DNA of 64,000 nt from a bacterium. Its GTDB lineage: Bacteria; Pseudomonadota; Alphaproteobacteria; Rhizobiales; JAKIUO01. A program made the translations under genes and the position numbers. Each line of letters starts with the position of its first letter. Positions within the stretch are counted from its first letter, which is position 1. Shown in pieces: positions 2,228 to 10,467 of the stretch. The stretch lies in assembly GCA_024228495.1 (NCBI GenBank), contig JAAETJ010000282.1, positions 1-64,000 on the forward strand, given 5' to 3'. A model generated the notes under the pieces. That model worked only from the letters and a program-made list of their open reading frames with translations. It was not told where the DNA came from and did no database searches.

Positions 2228-3292
2228 CTAGTTATTGAGTGTGAAGTTTCCGCCATTATTACTGAAACCAAATCTCTTGCGCCGGTAGCGTTTTCTCCAG
2301 GAACGTACAGCTGTTCTGCGACGCGCTTTTCTCTTGGCGATACGTTTTTTTTTCAAGTACCTGGCGCGGCGCATACGTTTGATCTTGCGTCGTTTCATAG
2401 AAGGAGGCGCAATATAATTTTCAACGAGCCGCGGACGCTTAATTTCATATTGAGGCGTTCGGGTGGTCGAAGTTGGCCGGAAAGCGGCTTTGCGGCTCCG
2501 CGCTTTAGTCCGCCATTTACTGACCCGTTTGAAGGCCCTTGTTCTGGTATTAGCTTTGCGCTTGCCAGCACTCGCGAGGCTGGTTTCATTGATCGTCGGC
2601 GTCTCAACACAAACTGTTTTGGTGACTTGTTGCAGGTGTTCAAGTGAGCTGACAAGAGGCGTCTTGGTTGTCAGGCTGGAACCAGTACTGGTATTGTAAA
2701 AAGTGATGGCAGCACGGGCGTTATCATCCCAATTACTTGTGACATTGCCGGAATAGCAACCGATCCGTCTAAGCTCTCGCTTCACGAGCACCGCTGTCAG
2801 GCGCGGGCCAAGAACAGGCTTTTGGGATTTGACATATCTTTGCTGATAGCTCTGTCCCAAAGGCTTGGTTGTCCCGCGTGTAAATTTATTGCGGCCTTCA
2901 CTAAAGGTCTGGCTGGTTTCCGTTTTTGCAAGCTGGACCAGTTTTATCGGTGTTTCTATAGGTAAGGCAGGAGGCAATTTAGCATATTTGAAAGAGCTGT
3001 TGGCAACGCGGCGCGGGTTGCGTGACGGTAATGCTGGGTCGCGGATGCTGGCGTATTCGTTCCGTGTCGCAGCCTTATCTTGCCGGTCGGAGCGTAAATA
3101 TAGAGATGAGTATTTGTCTCGTGATGTCAGCTTCTTAGGACTGGTTCTGTCCAAGGCATGTGCCGCAATGAACTTATGTTTTCCAAAATCAGCAAACCTG
3201 TTGACCTGTTGACCGTTTTCATCGACAGGTTTTCCTGTAACATAGAAAAAGCCGCTTAGCAGAGCAAAAGCAATTAACGTGACGCGAGTCAT
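2228..3292 (-). CDS. Secreted protein with PG_binding_1-like domain and a long Arg/Lys-rich C-terminal tail
   Basis: 354 aa; N-terminal signal-like segment; LVKRELRRIGCYSGNVTSNWDDNARAAITFYN matches peptidoglycan-binding-domain pattern; C-terminus MKRRKIKRMRRARYLKKKRIAKRKARRRTAVRSWRKRYRRKRFG. Confidence 0.7.
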   Translation of the reverse strand: MTRVTLIAFALLSGFFYVTGKPVDENGQQVNRFADFGKHKFIAAHALDRTSPKKLTSRDKYSSLYLRSDRQDKAATRNEYASIRDPALPSRNPRRVANSSFKYAKLPPALPIETPIKLVQLAKTETSQTFSEGRNKFTRGTTKPLGQSYQQRYVKSQKPVLGPRLTAVLVKRELRRIGCYSGNVTSNWDDNARAAITFYNTSTGSSLTTKTPLVSSLEHLQQVTKTVCVETPTINETSLASAGKRKANTRTRAFKRVSKWRTKARSRKAAFRPTSTTRTPQYEIKRPRLVENYIAPPSMKRRKIKRMRRARYLKKKRIAKRKARRRTAVRSWRKRYRRKRFGFSNNGGNFTLNN

Positions 3293-3679
3293 AATACACC
3301 TCTATATTTTTACTGATGCTAACGTATACTTGACCCTTTCGCAATAGGGCATTTACCACATGTTGATCAATAGGGAGGCGGTCGCGTCACGGTTGATGTA
3401 CCACTATGCCGTGATCCTGGAAACAGCAAATAACGGCGTATTTAAGCGATATTTTACCGAAATTAGAGTGTAGCTTATTGATAAAGATTCGTATACGTAT
3501 AATAAGCCTGTGGAGTTAAGCTCAGCTCTGCAACAGGCAATTAATCGCGCATACGTCCTAATAACTTTTATTCCCTCTGGCGCTGTGATCTGTGTTGCCG
3601 AGGGAGGATTAGATTAGAGAAAGGCATGCCATCCCCCTACCAATCTTGTTATAATCTGATTACCATGCCGGAGGGATAT

Positions 3680-3766
3680 ATGGTAAATCGAGATCGTTTT
3701 CGCGAAGCTTGCGGATATTGGCGGGTGCTCTTGAAGACGTTTTTGAACCTTCTAACAGGAGCCTGA
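3680..3766 (+). CDS. Possible 28-aa leader ORF ending 1 nt before the FecR-like gene
   Basis: GGAGGG a few nt upstream of ATG; MVNRDRFREACGYWRVLLKTFLNLLTGA*; TGA at 3764-3766, next ATG at 3768. Confidence 0.3.
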   Translation: MVNRDRFREACGYWRVLLKTFLNLLTGA

Positions 3767-3767
3767 T

Positions 3768-4634
3768 ATGAGATTTTCGACGTTAACCGCACTAACACTA
3801 TTTTTATCGATTTTCTTTTTATTGCAAGCCAATGAGCGGGTGTCTGCGACGATTTGGGTCGAACAGATTATTGGCCAATCAAAAGCCATTGTCATCGCCC
3901 GCAAGGGTAATTTTCTTGAAACGAGCGAGATGATGCGGTTGATACCAGGAGATGTTGTCAAGGTGACGGATGACAAGTCCTCGGTGCGCATATTGTTTGG
4001 GTCTGGCGCAATCAAAAATATAACCAAGGCAGCGTCCCCCTTTATGATTGACGGCAAGCAGGAGGGCAGCTCGTTTTTGACCAACCTGTTTGGGGAAGTA
4101 AAAAAAATGCTGGTGGCAAGCTCTGATGAAACCGAAGCCGTGGGAATGATGACGCGTGGACGCTCCAAGCAGCTTGCAATTCTGGGCACCGGGGCGGAAG
4201 AGAATATGGTGCTTGCCGGAGCGCAGCCTTTAGCGGTCGCATGGTCCGGGGGGGCAGCGCCCTTCAAGCTTTCATTGATCAATCCCGACAGTGACAAACC
4301 GGTGTTTTCCAAAGCTGGTCTTACTGAACAAAAATTGACGATTGATGCCGCTGAAATGGGAGCGAGTGGTCTGGAAGCTGGCGAGTATCAGGTGCTCATA
4401 GAGGATGGCGGGAAGACGTCCTCCAGTATAGAGATCGAACTTTTGACTGTTGAACTATCGGAGTTGCCGGCCCAGGCTCAAAAACTGTTGGCGTTGAAGC
4501 TCGACGAGCGTGTCGAAGCCCGTTTGTTGATCAATTTGTTGCACAAGCAGCCTGAATGGCGCTTTTTTGCCTATAGCCTTGCTCTGCGGTACGGACTTGA
4601 AAAAGAACGAGTCGCTCTGCTGGTGATGAAATAG
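3768..4634 (+). CDS. Secreted FecR-like / SH3-like domain protein
   Basis: 288 aa; signal peptide; LIPGDVVKVTDDKSSVRILFGSGAIKNI resembles FecR domain core; first of three collinear genes. Confidence 0.6.
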   Translation: MRFSTLTALTLFLSIFFLLQANERVSATIWVEQIIGQSKAIVIARKGNFLETSEMMRLIPGDVVKVTDDKSSVRILFGSGAIKNITKAASPFMIDGKQEGSSFLTNLFGEVKKMLVASSDETEAVGMMTRGRSKQLAILGTGAEENMVLAGAQPLAVAWSGGAAPFKLSLINPDSDKPVFSKAGLTEQKLTIDAAEMGASGLEAGEYQVLIEDGGKTSSSIEIELLTVELSELPAQAQKLLALKLDERVEARLLINLLHKQPEWRFFAYSLALRYGLEKERVALLVMK

Positions 4635-4685
4635 CATGCGAGCTTAACCCTTGCATTATATATTCAAATTGAGAAAGCCAAGAAG

Positions 4686-6944
4686 ATGTTTCATCGCCTG
4701 AGTGTCCACTGGCGCCCCTATCTTTTCCTGCTGACCTTGTTGGTTGGATTTGGCCAATCGGCTAACGCCCGTAAATATGGGTTTCTTGTCGGGGTTTCCA
4801 ACTACCCCAATCTGGAAAAAAAGTTTCAGCTGTCGGGGCCTGACAATGATGTCGAGCTGATGAAGAACGTGTTGCTTCAGATGCAGGTTGAAGAGCGGGA
4901 CATCAAGCTTCTTTACAGCTCTCATACACAGCGACCGACCCGGGAAAATATTATTGAGGGGTTGCGTGAGCTTGCGACAAAAACCACGGCGAACGATTTT
5001 GTCTATCTGTTTTTTGCAGGGCATGGTTCTCGTCAACCGGCAAGGGCAGGGGATACCGAGGAAGAAGATCAGCTTGATGAAATTTTCCTGCCTGAAGATG
5101 TTGGTACCTGGAGTGATGAAATCGGTGCTGTTGAGCGCGCGATTACCGATAATGAGATTAATGCCCTGATTACAGCTATTCGGGCCAATGGAACCTTTGT
5201 CTGGGCGATCTTTGATAGTTGTCATTCTGGCACCATGTTGCGCTCGGTCGATCGGATCAAGTGGCGCAAGGTCGATCCCAATGCGCTGGGCATACCATCG
5301 GTTGCAGCAGCACGCGCGGGGGATCGTCAGGGCAATAATGAGAAATCCCCTTCGAACGTTGCGAGCAACGTATCCGTGGAGCGCTCCAAGCCTGGTGGCT
5401 TCGTGGCCTTTTATGCAGCTCAAAGTCATGAGTTGGCGCCGGAGCTGAAACTGCCGCCACATGGCGCCAAACCAAAATCACACGGCCTGTTCACCTATCA
5501 GCTTGCCCATGCCATGATGTCGGGTGCTGGTTTAAGCTATCGTCAGCTTGGACAAACGATCTTGCAAAATTATGTCGCGCAGGGTATGCGGGCGACTACC
5601 CCCTTGTTTGAGGGTACCCACCTTGATGCACTGATGTTTGGGCGCATCAATCAAGGCGACAATAATCAATGGCCGGTGCGAAAACGGGGTGGTTCCAAAC
5701 CATCGCTGTTTGTTCCCGCTGGCCAATTGCAGCAAATCGGTAAGGGGGCTATTTTTGCGTTGCTTGCCAAAGTCTCGGATGCAAATGACCAGGCTCTTGG
5801 CTTTGCACGGGCTGATCTCGTGGAGATTTTTGGTACGAAATTGGTCCCTATTGCCTATAATGACAAGCCTGCTGCTGATATCCAAGCATTACCGCGTTCG
5901 ACTTACGCAAGAATGATCAAGCCATCGTTTCAGTTTGGTCTAAGCGTGGCCATGGCGCGTCTTGGCTATGCTGTGAGTGATCGTGAGCGCCGCGTCGTAA
6001 GGGTCATCGAGGCAATGGCGCAAAAGCAGCAAGCAGATAAAAATCTGAACGGGTTGCGCATCAAGTGGCAACAGCCAGGGGAGCCCGCTGATATCCATCT
6101 GGTCTTTTCTCCAGCTCAGAAAAGCCAGGCAGCAACACAGGGTTGCGCTCGCAACCATTTATGGTTTCTTGATCGCACTGGCGCGCTTATCTGCTCGGGC
6201 AACAAGGCTAATCTGTCATTTCGTTTGCAAAACCCTTCCATTGATTTTGATCGCAATGTCGAAAAGGCGCTTGGTGAATGGCTGAACGCCATTGGCAAGG
6301 TAAGAAATCTTGAGCAGATGGTCGAGCGCTTTAAGGGGGGGCGTTTTGCTCGCAAAATAAAAATAAGATTATGGGTGAAACCGGCAAAAGGCGGCAAGGA
6401 GGTGATCGTTGATCAAGCTTCGCGTCGCCCGTTGCTGGCAGGGGACAGAATTCGCCTCGAACTCAACAACACCTCTGGGACGCCCGTTGATCTGACGGTC
6501 TTGTTTATCGATAGCCATTTCGGCATCACACCCATTTTCCCGATCCGCGGGGGAACCAACCGCATTGCGGCCAAGTCGCAGTTGAATAGTGTCGGTGGCA
6601 AAATTACCAGCGATACGCTGGGGTTGGAGGGTATGGTGGTTATCGTGACGAAGGCATTGGCGGGAACTCCGGTTGCTGATTTTCGTTCATTGGGACAAAA
6701 GAAACTCTCGCTGACAAAAAACGTGCGCTCCATGGGGGACGCGCAAGCATCCTTGTCCAATCCACAGCTATCGGCCGTGGAGGATCTGTTTAACAGCGCC
6801 ATTTTCGGCAAGCTGGCCGCCTCCCAAAGTCGGGCCCGGAAACGAGCAATGTCGACCCGCTCCGGCAGTAAGCGAAAACGATCTTCGCGCACCCCGTTCA
6901 AGCATGTCGCCATCAAATCATTGCGTTGGATGGTGGGAAATTAG
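4686..6944 (+). CDS. Secreted caspase-family (C14/metacaspase-like) protease with DUF4384-like C-terminal domain
   Basis: 752 aa; signal peptide ending SANA; GFLVGVSNYPN; catalytic His in YLFFAGHGSR (codon 113, nt 5022-5024) and Cys in FDSCHSGT (codon 179, nt 5220-5222); C-terminal LLAGDRIRLELNNTSGTPVDLTVLFIDSHFGITPIFP. Confidence 0.88.
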   Translation: MFHRLSVHWRPYLFLLTLLVGFGQSANARKYGFLVGVSNYPNLEKKFQLSGPDNDVELMKNVLLQMQVEERDIKLLYSSHTQRPTRENIIEGLRELATKTTANDFVYLFFAGHGSRQPARAGDTEEEDQLDEIFLPEDVGTWSDEIGAVERAITDNEINALITAIRANGTFVWAIFDSCHSGTMLRSVDRIKWRKVDPNALGIPSVAAARAGDRQGNNEKSPSNVASNVSVERSKPGGFVAFYAAQSHELAPELKLPPHGAKPKSHGLFTYQLAHAMMSGAGLSYRQLGQTILQNYVAQGMRATTPLFEGTHLDALMFGRINQGDNNQWPVRKRGGSKPSLFVPAGQLQQIGKGAIFALLAKVSDANDQALGFARADLVEIFGTKLVPIAYNDKPAADIQALPRSTYARMIKPSFQFGLSVAMARLGYAVSDRERRVVRVIEAMAQKQQADKNLNGLRIKWQQPGEPADIHLVFSPAQKSQAATQGCARNHLWFLDRTGALICSGNKANLSFRLQNPSIDFDRNVEKALGEWLNAIGKVRNLEQMVERFKGGRFARKIKIRLWVKPAKGGKEVIVDQASRRPLLAGDRIRLELNNTSGTPVDLTVLFIDSHFGITPIFPIRGGTNRIAAKSQLNSVGGKITSDTLGLEGMVVIVTKALAGTPVADFRSLGQKKLSLTKNVRSMGDAQASLSNPQLSAVEDLFNSAIFGKLAASQSRARKRAMSTRSGSKRKRSSRTPFKHVAIKSLRWMVGN

Positions 6945-7135
6945 GAGCATTTAAGTGATGTCCGAATGGGCGTGCTCTGTGATTTTTTATAAAGGGTCCA
7001 GTTGTTTTCGCTTGGTGCACTGTTCGATTTATCACGAAATTTTCCTTGTAATTTTAACCGGAATTTCGCAAACTTGCTAGCGGGGACAGAGTATATCAGG
7101 TGGATGGTGATCAACTAATCTGCTAGGCGTATTGT

Positions 7136-8725
7136 TTGGAAGGGCTGGGCATGGCTGCATTCTGGCGTAGGGTTCCCGGATTCTGGCAAAATTTCATTGC
7201 CGGATTATTGATCATCGGGGCACTTTTGAGTCTGGATCGAACCGCCGTTGTCAAACATTGGGAAGACTGGGCCGTCGATATCATGATCCGGCTGAACAGC
7301 TCACTGGATCGTATGACGGGAGAGCGTCGCGGACGCACCGATCTACAATTTACCTTTTTGGACATGGACGAACATTCATTTCGCGACAAGAGCTGGAACG
7401 AACCCTTCCATGTGCCTCGCGACAAGGTGTTGAAACTGATAGAGTTTGCGGTCGAGGGCAAGGCCTCGATTATTGTCGTTGATGTAAATTTTAGCAAGAA
7501 GGGCACTGATCCTGATGCTGACAGAGCCCTTGTCGATTATGTTGCCAATTATCCCAGCAGTGCCCCGCCGCTTATTTTGATGCGCGCCAAGCGTAATCAG
7601 GAGGGGAGCGGTTCAGCCGATCTTGGGGAATTTCGGAAAACTATTTTTGCGGGTATAAAGCACTCTAACGTGCATTTTGCGCAGCCATTATTCCGGCGCG
7701 ACAGGCACGATGGCGTGGTGCGAAGCTGGATTTTGTTTGATCAAGGATGTTTTGGTGGACAAGGCCTGTCAGTTCCTTCAGTGCAATTGCTGTCTTATGC
7801 CTTATTGAAAGACCGGCATGGCGGGGGACGACAAAACCTGTTGGATCTTGATGCATCAATGAGTGCCAATGCACCAACCACCTGTAATTCCAGCAAGAAA
7901 TTGAATTATAATTTGCGTCCTGTTATTCTGGGCAAAACGGTTTTCCGTCAGCAAAGGCTTGGCGAGAGGTTGATCTACTCAATCCCGTGGCCAAAATCTA
8001 GTCACGTCTCTTCAGATCTTGCGACCATCCCCGCTGTATTTGTCACTGACCGCGGTTTTAAAAACTATGAAGAGGTCACGGACCGTATCACCTTGATCGG
8101 AGCAAGCTATGGAGCTTCTCACGATTTACATCTGACCCCACTTGGGTTAATGCCCGGAACACTGATCATTCTCAATGCCATCAAATCATTGTCTTTGTTT
8201 GATCAGATACAACCGCCACCGCTATATATTCGTCTGGCTTTTTTGATTACTTTCATCACTGTTCTTAGCTATGTATTCTCGAAATATAGCAATGTTATCA
8301 AACTATTGGTCATCTCGACCATGGTGTTTGTTTTCTTTGTGCCGATCAGTTTCTGGTTTTTCAAATATGGTGTGTGGTTTGATTTCGGCATCTTGTTGCT
8401 AGGCATCAAACTACAGCATACGGCCTCTGAATTTCTCGAGGTGAGGGAGCTTAAGCGCCTGCGCAGTGAATTGCTGGCATTTAAATCAAACAAATCTGTG
8501 TCAGGTGATTCGCAATCAGTCAGTGTGCCTGCCGAATTCAATTATTCAGATCCAGATGAAATGGAAGTGCAAGTGCGTTTAAAGCGTAACAAGGATGGCA
8601 GTTTCAGGGTGAAAGCCTTCCCGGCCGGGCTATCCAGCGCGGAATTCGAGATTGCTCCCCAAGGACTGAAAAAGAAACAGAGTGGCTATGTCCTTGATTT
8701 GAAACGCCACGGCTCCTCGTCTTGA
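7136..8725 (+). CDS. CHASE2-domain membrane protein without recognisable output domain
   Basis: 529 aa (TTG 7136; ATG at 7151 plausible); DRTAVVKHWEDWAVDIMIR, FLDMDEHSF, VPRDKVLKLIEFAVEGKASIIVVDVNFS, ITLIGASYGASHDLHLTPLG-LMPGTLIILNAIKSL, then 3 TM helices. Confidence 0.8.
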   Translation: MEGLGMAAFWRRVPGFWQNFIAGLLIIGALLSLDRTAVVKHWEDWAVDIMIRLNSSLDRMTGERRGRTDLQFTFLDMDEHSFRDKSWNEPFHVPRDKVLKLIEFAVEGKASIIVVDVNFSKKGTDPDADRALVDYVANYPSSAPPLILMRAKRNQEGSGSADLGEFRKTIFAGIKHSNVHFAQPLFRRDRHDGVVRSWILFDQGCFGGQGLSVPSVQLLSYALLKDRHGGGRQNLLDLDASMSANAPTTCNSSKKLNYNLRPVILGKTVFRQQRLGERLIYSIPWPKSSHVSSDLATIPAVFVTDRGFKNYEEVTDRITLIGASYGASHDLHLTPLGLMPGTLIILNAIKSLSLFDQIQPPPLYIRLAFLITFITVLSYVFSKYSNVIKLLVISTMVFVFFVPISFWFFKYGVWFDFGILLLGIKLQHTASEFLEVRELKRLRSELLAFKSNKSVSGDSQSVSVPAEFNYSDPDEMEVQVRLKRNKDGSFRVKAFPAGLSSAEFEIAPQGLKKKQSGYVLDLKRHGSSS

Positions 8726-9198: not shown

Positions 9199-10467
9199 AT
9201 GAGATATGCTCTAGGTACAGTAGGAGTCATTGCAGCGGGTGTTTTGTTATTCGTCTCCGCGGCGATGAACTGGAGTTTCGGGTTTGGTCTCGGTAAGACA
9301 CCACTCGAATCCCAAATCCTTGGCGCAGGTAGCGTCGGGGCCGATGTTTTAAAAGCCTTGATACCATTCCTGGTATTATATGCGATGAAACATCGTTCAT
9401 GGATGCAGGCGATGGCCGGTATCCTTGTGTGGACAATCTGCACAACTTATTCACTCACTTCATCCCTTGGCTTCGCAGCGCATAACCGCTCTGATACCGT
9501 GGGTGAACGCACGCTTGCTGCTACGCAGTACGGCGATCTGCGTGAACAGTTGAAGAGTGTGAACGCGAAGCTCGGGTGGATCCCGCAGCATCGTTCAGTT
9601 GCAGAAGTCGATGCAGACATTAATGCGATTTTAGATAAACGCGTTAAAAAGGGTCGTAATCGTGGAAAAACTATCGGACAGGTGACTAAAAACTTCACCA
9701 ACAAGTCTTGGTATTCACGTCATTACGGCGACAAGGTGCTCAATCTTCGCAAAGAACTAGCTATCGCGAAGAATGCTGAAACACTCTATGCCGAAAAAGC
9801 AACGCTTACCGGCAAACTTGAGTATACTAGCACAAAGTCTGTAACGACAGCTGATCCACAAGCTGCCATTCTCACCCAGATTACCGGGTTGAGCATCGAA
9901 AAAGTCCAGCTTGGACTTATCGTATTGCTCTCCTTGTTGGTTGAGATTGGTTCGGGTCTTGGTTTCTTCGTCGTCCTTGGTGGTGACAAAGCCAAAGCAA
10001 TCCAGATCATGGCAAAGGCTGAAGCTAGAGCGCGAGCTAAAGTTGAAGCAGCTGCTGTGAAAACGGTTGAAAAGGTTGAAGCCAAAACTGAACAGAGTGT
10101 TGTCGCTCCCGTCGTCGAGGCCAAATCGGCCCCGGTTGCAAATGACAACATTCCAACTAGAAGGCCAACGGTGCCTCTCATCTCATCAAACGAGTTAAAG
10201 GACTATTATGGTGATCGTATTGAAATGCAGGACGGAACAAGTATTACAGCATCCGCTTTGTATGAAGACTATTGTTCTTGGGCTGAATCCCGTAAAAAAG
10301 AACCAATGACTCTGCCGGCCTTTGGTCGTCAGTTCGGCGAAATCGGTATTCAAAAAGCCAAAATCGCTGGTCGTATAAGGTACATAAATGTCAAACTAAA
10401 ATCGAATGATGTGTCTTTGGAGGTCAACAATTCTTCTAATGGAAGATTGATGGCGGCCTCAGCCTAG
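9199..10467 (+). CDS. Multi-TM membrane protein with coiled coil and primase-like winged-helix C-terminal domain
   Basis: 422 aa; about 4 hydrophobic segments; Ala/Lys/Glu-rich coil; C-term SALYEDYCSWAESRKKEPMTLPAFGRQFGEIGIQKAKIAGRIRYINVKL resembles the C-terminal wHTH of phage D5-like primases. Strong RBS GGAGGGA at 9187. Confidence 0.55.
   Translation: MRYALGTVGVIAAGVLLFVSAAMNWSFGFGLGKTPLESQILGAGSVGADVLKALIPFLVLYAMKHRSWMQAMAGILVWTICTTYSLTSSLGFAAHNRSDTVGERTLAATQYGDLREQLKSVNAKLGWIPQHRSVAEVDADINAILDKRVKKGRNRGKTIGQVTKNFTNKSWYSRHYGDKVLNLRKELAIAKNAETLYAEKATLTGKLEYTSTKSVTTADPQAAILTQITGLSIEKVQLGLIVLLSLLVEIGSGLGFFVVLGGDKAKAIQIMAKAEARARAKVEAAAVKTVEKVEAKTEQSVVAPVVEAKSAPVANDNIPTRRPTVPLISSNELKDYYGDRIEMQDGTSITASALYEDYCSWAESRKKEPMTLPAFGRQFGEIGIQKAKIAGRIRYINVKLKSNDVSLEVNNSSNGRLMAASA

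Follow-up and report, generated by a model that had tools for sequence, protein, structure and literature searches.

CHASE2 is classed as a sensory domain, and CHAT-TPR proteins belong to a caspase-fold peptidase family. To our knowledge, little has been established about what exported bacterial caspases do, work having centred on cytoplasmic roles in cell death and defence. A CHASE2-metacaspase fusion protein is encoded by Trichodesmium erythraeum IMS101 (PMC2853523, PMC3501461). Orthocaspases are stated to cleave after Arg/Lys, and a C-terminal DUF4384 has been reported for a clade of pseudo-variant orthocaspases (PMC6426788). A literature search returned no separate-gene CHASE2-caspase or CHASE2-CHAT module, and no text in which CHASE2 appears together with both FecR and caspase, or together with ‘CHAT domain’; such absence is not proof of novelty.

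We analysed a window of 64,000 nucleotides from an alphaproteobacterial contig, in which four open reading frames lie where the earlier note had placed them, at 2228-3292 on the minus strand and at 3768-4634, 4686-6944 and 7136-8725 on the plus strand. We hypothesize that the three plus-strand genes (FL, CASP and CHASE2-CC) constitute one envelope module, in which FL-CHASE2-CC, lacking a cytoplasmic output domain, governs a caspase-fold protease outside the cytoplasm, a reading to which we give an even chance. The features are as follows.

2228-3292, minus strand: PGB, rich in Arg/Lys, secreted or signal-anchored, with a single weak PG-binding-like domain; gene divergent from FL in G051 and 5/5 genus genomes
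2594-2821, minus strand: PG-binding-like domain of PGB with two conserved Cys, limits approximate, from alignment with the G051 relative
3633-3655, plus strand: upstream element CCCCCTACCAAT, then a -10-like TATAAT (sigma-70-like match), before FL; the best-conserved PGB-FL intergenic block among the five genus genomes
3768-4634, plus strand: FL, unnamed secreted family, 288 aa; homologues adjoin CHASE2 in other families
4686-6944, plus strand: CASP, secreted caspase-family protease, 752 aa (Pfam Peptidase_C14, E=1.5e-19)
4782-5558, plus strand: C14 (p20) domain of CASP; His113 codon 5022-5024, Cys179 codon 5220-5222
6426-6668, plus strand: DUF4384-like domain of CASP, residues 581-661
7151-8725, plus strand: CHASE2-CC, membrane protein with periplasmic CHASE2 and C-terminal TM helices (Pfam and TM scan), without output domain
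7748-7885, plus strand: Cys205-to-Cys250 codon span of CHASE2-CC (numbering from 7136), which marks the output-less type

The start of CHASE2-CC is probably the ATG at 7151 rather than the TTG at 7136, because the corresponding Met is invariant in the genus copies. Pfam matches were obtained in the caspase and CHASE2 proteins only, with none in FL or PGB. The CCCCCTACCAAT block upstream of FL is possibly a regulator site.

The genus set comprises five genomes, the window genome and G001-G004. PGB, FL and CASP are kept in all five, arranged in G001-G004 as in the window. CHASE2 is found in all four genomes whose contigs reach that point (the G002 contig stops before it), and follows CASP in G001, G003 and G004. 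The gap between FL and the C14 gene is 45-51 bp throughout, in G003 with unrelated flanks. Identities of the G001-G004 proteins to those of the window are 79-82% and 54% for FL, and 81-88% and 62% for CASP. All four genes are under purifying selection within the genus, with dN/dS of about 0.08-0.16 for FL, CASP and CHASE2 and 0.24-0.37 for PGB. A strict operon is not required, since a DUF4336 gene directly follows CASP in G001 and G002. Further along the window (9199-10467) lies the gene of a 422-aa membrane protein from a family without a name, 93-94% identical in G001 and G004, where it is also downstream of CHASE2; its relative in G003 is on another contig.

FL had been labelled ‘FecR-like’, a name that we abandon. 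The Pfam FecR model (PF04773) matches nothing in the five genus genomes, and when FL was compared by hhalign with 20 FecR proteins taken from related genomes, the probabilities were 1.5-10%. Kinship with DUF928 (PF06051) was rejected likewise, with no Pfam match and an hhalign probability below 1% against a small DUF928 alignment. Searches of FL against Pfam, NCBIfam and PADLOC gave no match. Its N-terminus has a hydrophobic stretch with an AxA-type site, as seen in sequence and hydropathy. The AlphaFold model is poor (pLDDT 48), with moderate confidence only in a C-terminal beta-sandwich and a helical tail, and a fold search with this model gave beta-sandwiches of the GOLD and carbohydrate-binding types, with no match at E<=0.001. 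FL stands where cyclase-type CHASE2 genes have FecR or DUF928 as neighbour, but shows no detectable sequence kinship to either. FecR itself is found within 5 kb of 25 of the 44 CHASE2 genes, against 0.3 expected.

CASP carries the p20 domain of Peptidase C14 and orthocaspases. The catalytic His113 and Cys179, described earlier as intact, are so in the window and, together with Asp177, are invariant in all 23 relatives. The signal peptide ascribed to this protein is borne out by an N-terminal hydrophobic stretch with an AxA-type site, although the window copy falls just under the threshold of the hydropathy scan; three of the four genus orthologues pass, clearly or marginally. For DUF4384 Pfam makes no call, whereas hhalign matches residues 581-661 (95.7%, E=8.6e-9). 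The AlphaFold model of CASP is uninformative (pLDDT 32). By analogy with its family, CASP may cleave after Arg/Lys.

The generic ‘caspase’ model of PADLOC also matches CASP (1.9e-17), as would be expected if the protein were an anti-phage or abortive-infection effector. We consider this role very improbable. A cytoplasmic caspase defence system consists of a cytoplasmic effector and a defence sensing partner, and the CASP cluster does not have this composition, because the sequence of CASP predicts export and PADLOC finds no partner of the caspase among the four cluster proteins. The neighbours of the cluster are housekeeping and flagellar genes.

Other C14 genes occur in varied surroundings. 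The window genome holds eight (L001-L008), including fusions to YARHG, NADase_transloc, FGE-sulfatase and WD40 domains. A CASP paralogue with 37% identity (L047, G002:C277) is preceded by the genes for an ECF sigma factor and a 202-aa protein and followed by that for a TPR protein. On Pseudosulfitobacter plasmids (L252, L253), CASP relatives are clustered with a second caspase, a patatin, a trypsin-like protease and a histidine kinase/response regulator pair; clusters of this type are found in many isolates from diatom cultures or seawater.

The membrane protein is a CHASE2 protein, as the earlier note had it (Pfam E=1.3e-19), with the domain placed between an N-terminal TM helix and the C-terminal TM helices. 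No cytoplasmic output domain such as a cyclase or kinase follows CHASE2 in Pfam scans of the window protein or of the relatives scanned. Because it is without a recognisable output domain, CHASE2-CC is not an ordinary inward-signalling sensor. The output-less type is further marked by Cys205 and Cys250 (ORF numbering from 7136), present in 15/15 output-less CHASE2 proteins; among 30 cyclase-type proteins none has Cys at either column, in an alignment whose second Cys column captures 11 of the 15 output-less proteins. The CHASE2 protein of Rhizobium sp. BG4, outside the 15-protein set, has two cysteines in the same region. A disulphide between Cys205 and Cys250 would fit a periplasmic location. 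The BG4 CHASE2-CC frame (L254, 6842-8175) is interrupted in the deposited sequence, while the downstream FL and CHAT frames are open.

The C-terminal tail of CHASE2-CC bears on a different reading, in which the protein still signals inward by way of its tail or TM helices, with the caspase no more than a co-regulated part of that response. The tail that follows the C-terminal TM helices is about 100 residues long in the genus and includes a conserved DPDE-EVQVRLKRN segment, which speaks for this reading. In f22, f61 and f172, however, it is just about 20-40 residues, and no tail contains a Pfam domain. We regard inward signalling as unlikely, also because a protease gene stays adjacent whichever of two protease families it belongs to, as described below.

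Beyond the genus, a profile search with FL identified a family member in G051 (family f48), where FL is divergent from a PGB-type protein and has a TPR gene downstream, on a short contig without CHASE2-CC or caspase. Searching for relatives of CASP and CHASE2 led to G246 (family f22), in which an FL relative (hhalign 95.7%) adjoins an output-less CHASE2. With G051 and G246 added, the FL profile retrieved seven f22 genomes, plus five f61/f172 genomes elsewhere in the class; a weak match in G449 (4e-4) looks like a housekeeping enzyme and was ignored. A single-sequence tblastn with FL found no copies on plasmids, and the Rhizobium copy surfaced via a CHASE2 search. Two separate class-wide searches, one with FL (385 genomes sampled) and one with CHASE2-CC (332 genomes sampled), agreed on six genomes as those with strong matches.

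Each of the seven f22 genomes has FL at a spacing of -4 to +16 bp from the gene of an output-less CHASE2 (455-477 aa), and a secreted C14 gene of the CASP subfamily faces the pair at a distance of 3-2731 bp. FL, C14 and CHASE2 thus co-occur both in the genus and, in another gene order, in these genomes of another family, so that the central prediction of the earlier note, of genes that form a set acting outside the cytoplasm, stands up to the refuting condition set there; a secreted C14 adjoins the FL-CHASE2 pair in 12 genomes of two families. The f1 and f22 C14 proteins are not united in a single clade (two label changes, supported), and the association has therefore probably originated, or been retained, more than one time.

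The gene-neighbourhood check that had been suggested also turned up FL and CHASE2 together with CHAT, in two additional families and Rhizobium. In f61/f172 the FL and CHASE2 genes share 23-26 bp of overlap (four loci measured), and the pair adjoins a CHAT-TPR protein of about 1000 aa (E=1e-35 to 1e-40) with a His/Cys dyad. On plasmid pRPC1 of Rhizobium sp. BG4, the genes for CHASE2, FL and CHAT (E=4.5e-51, dyad present) are consecutive on one strand. The protease slot is exchangeable, with CHAT replacing C14 in other lineages.

C14 or CHAT is close by in 17 of the 17 FL loci scanned, which are not independent of each other; counted by lineage (f1, f22, f61/f172 and BG4) the result is 4/4, about four independent cases. 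G051 was excluded from the 17, its contig being too short to judge. The FL of BG4 scored 4.9e-8 in one scan and below the cut-off in the neighbourhood count, so that its FL call rests on the former scan. Around cyclase-type CHASE2 genes, C14 or CHAT was present within 8 kb in 0 of 40 loci, and FL never, in a control made up of the best-scoring CHASE2 genes; three lower-scoring loci of families f36-f38 do have a nearby C14. Numerous secreted C14 relatives lack an accompanying FL or CHASE2-CC, which might be taken to mean that unrelated envelope genes have met by chance. That the linkage recurs in about four independent lineages, whose gene orders differ, already disfavours this explanation when set against the control, and we give it hardly any credence.

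The three f36-f38 loci place C14 near a CHASE2 of cyclase length, and CHASE2-caspase linkage is therefore not confined to FL modules. In L241, L242 and L243 (families f38, f36 and f37), a CHASE2 gene and a DUF928 gene are accompanied by one or two genes for secreted C14 proteins, of which some carry DUF4384; the cyclase was confirmed in L241, and DUF928 by Pfam in L241 and L242. L241 also holds FecR, a Crp-type regulator and a Sel1/PG_binding protein. These loci represent a parallel arrangement with a cytoplasmic output. Since their CHASE2 and DUF928 genes adjoin secreted C14 genes, inward-signalling CHASE2 can also accompany caspases, and they and the Crp-type regulator of L241 speak for the inward-signalling reading of CHASE2-CC.

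The divergent gene PGB fares differently. The earlier note had ascribed a PG-binding domain to its product and proposed a wall-anchored factor as the gate of protease activation, and neither idea is borne out. PG_binding_1 is unmatched in the window protein and stays below threshold in its relatives (E=0.0017 and 0.033; 19.0 and 14.8 bits against a cut-off of 23). PGB is found in the genus and one other genome only, and its gene is peripheral to the module. The strongly basic C-terminal tail is a genus trait, missing in the one distant relative. Fusions of the PGB domain to C14, considered as a link, were limited to weak sub-threshold cases. Being Arg/Lys-rich and adjacent, PGB is a possible substrate of the protease, in this genus only.

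Gingipain-like clan CD enzymes mature or trim exported surface proteins, and the module could have a similar processing task, with FL-CHASE2-CC serving as a docking membrane scaffold and not as a sensor. The large-protein gene beside CHAT in f61/f172 is in keeping with this, since the one scanned, in G616, encodes a TPS-secreted hemagglutinin-like exoprotein. CASP-subfamily members without FL adjoin trypsin, patatin or phospholipase D genes, as well as CHAT-TPR or ECF sigma-factor genes, and the basic protein PGB, encoded next to the cluster, might be a target of such processing. However, a TPS exoprotein was not seen beside the f1 or f22 modules, and the classification of CHASE2 as sensory does not suit a mere scaffold. 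We consider processing a possibility to be taken seriously, if a rather improbable one.

We return to control of the protease by FL-CHASE2-CC. The functional link of FL, CHASE2-CC and the protease is well supported, gene neighbourhood being evidence of linkage and not of the direction of control; the strongest argument for function is the recurrent pairing of FL-CHASE2-CC with exported caspase-fold proteases. In our model, CASP would be exported and act as a His/Cys caspase-fold protease. CHASE2-CC would be an inner-membrane protein whose sensory domain faces the periplasm and which lacks a cytoplasmic output domain, and FL would be its exported partner, the two forming a physical complex as a membrane-bound receptor or regulator. 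On a trigger, this complex may restrain (or activate) the protease, and thereby cleavage of its substrate, directly in the periplasm, so that the signal would run sideways in the envelope and not into the cytoplasm. In other families, this pair would instead be coupled to a secreted CHAT protease. Envelope stress and self-digestion, the functions suggested in the earlier note, and defence all found no positive support in the analysis. The arrangement suggests that protease control takes place wholly outside the cytoplasm, and that a classic sensor domain can work without cytoplasmic output. We speculate, with more doubt than conviction, that FL-CHASE2-CC represents a class of sideways-signalling receptors that switch exported, interchangeable C14 or CHAT proteases directly in the periplasm, as a bacterial counterpart of caspase control by membrane receptors. 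The compact three-gene unit, which in its CHAT form is also present in a cultured Rhizobium, offers a defined set of partners, and the diagnostic cysteine pair and the new family FL provide handles for testing how an exported caspase-fold protease is controlled.

CHASE2-adenylate/guanylate cyclase loci resemble the module in that a CHASE2 membrane receptor is genetically coupled to a small exported protein (FecR or DUF928), and there the DUF928 gene overlaps the CHASE2 gene; they differ in having a cyclase output and in missing the cysteine pair and FL. CHAT-TPR proteins replace C14 as the neighbour of FL-CHASE2-CC in Rhizobium sp. BG4 and in families f61 and f172, but are another protease family and are missing from the window cluster. 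With bacterial orthocaspases, some of which have a C-terminal DUF4384 (PMC6426788), CASP shares the p20 domain with its His-Cys dyad. Unlike the pseudo-variants for which DUF4384 is reported, it retains the catalytic dyad, and it is further set apart by its predicted export and its tie to FL-CHASE2. The Trichodesmium fusion likewise joins a CHASE2 receptor domain and a caspase domain, but does so in one polypeptide with a metacaspase predicted to be cytoplasmic (PMC3501461), whereas the window module has separate genes, a protease that is probably exported, the partner FL and a CHASE2 protein without output domain.
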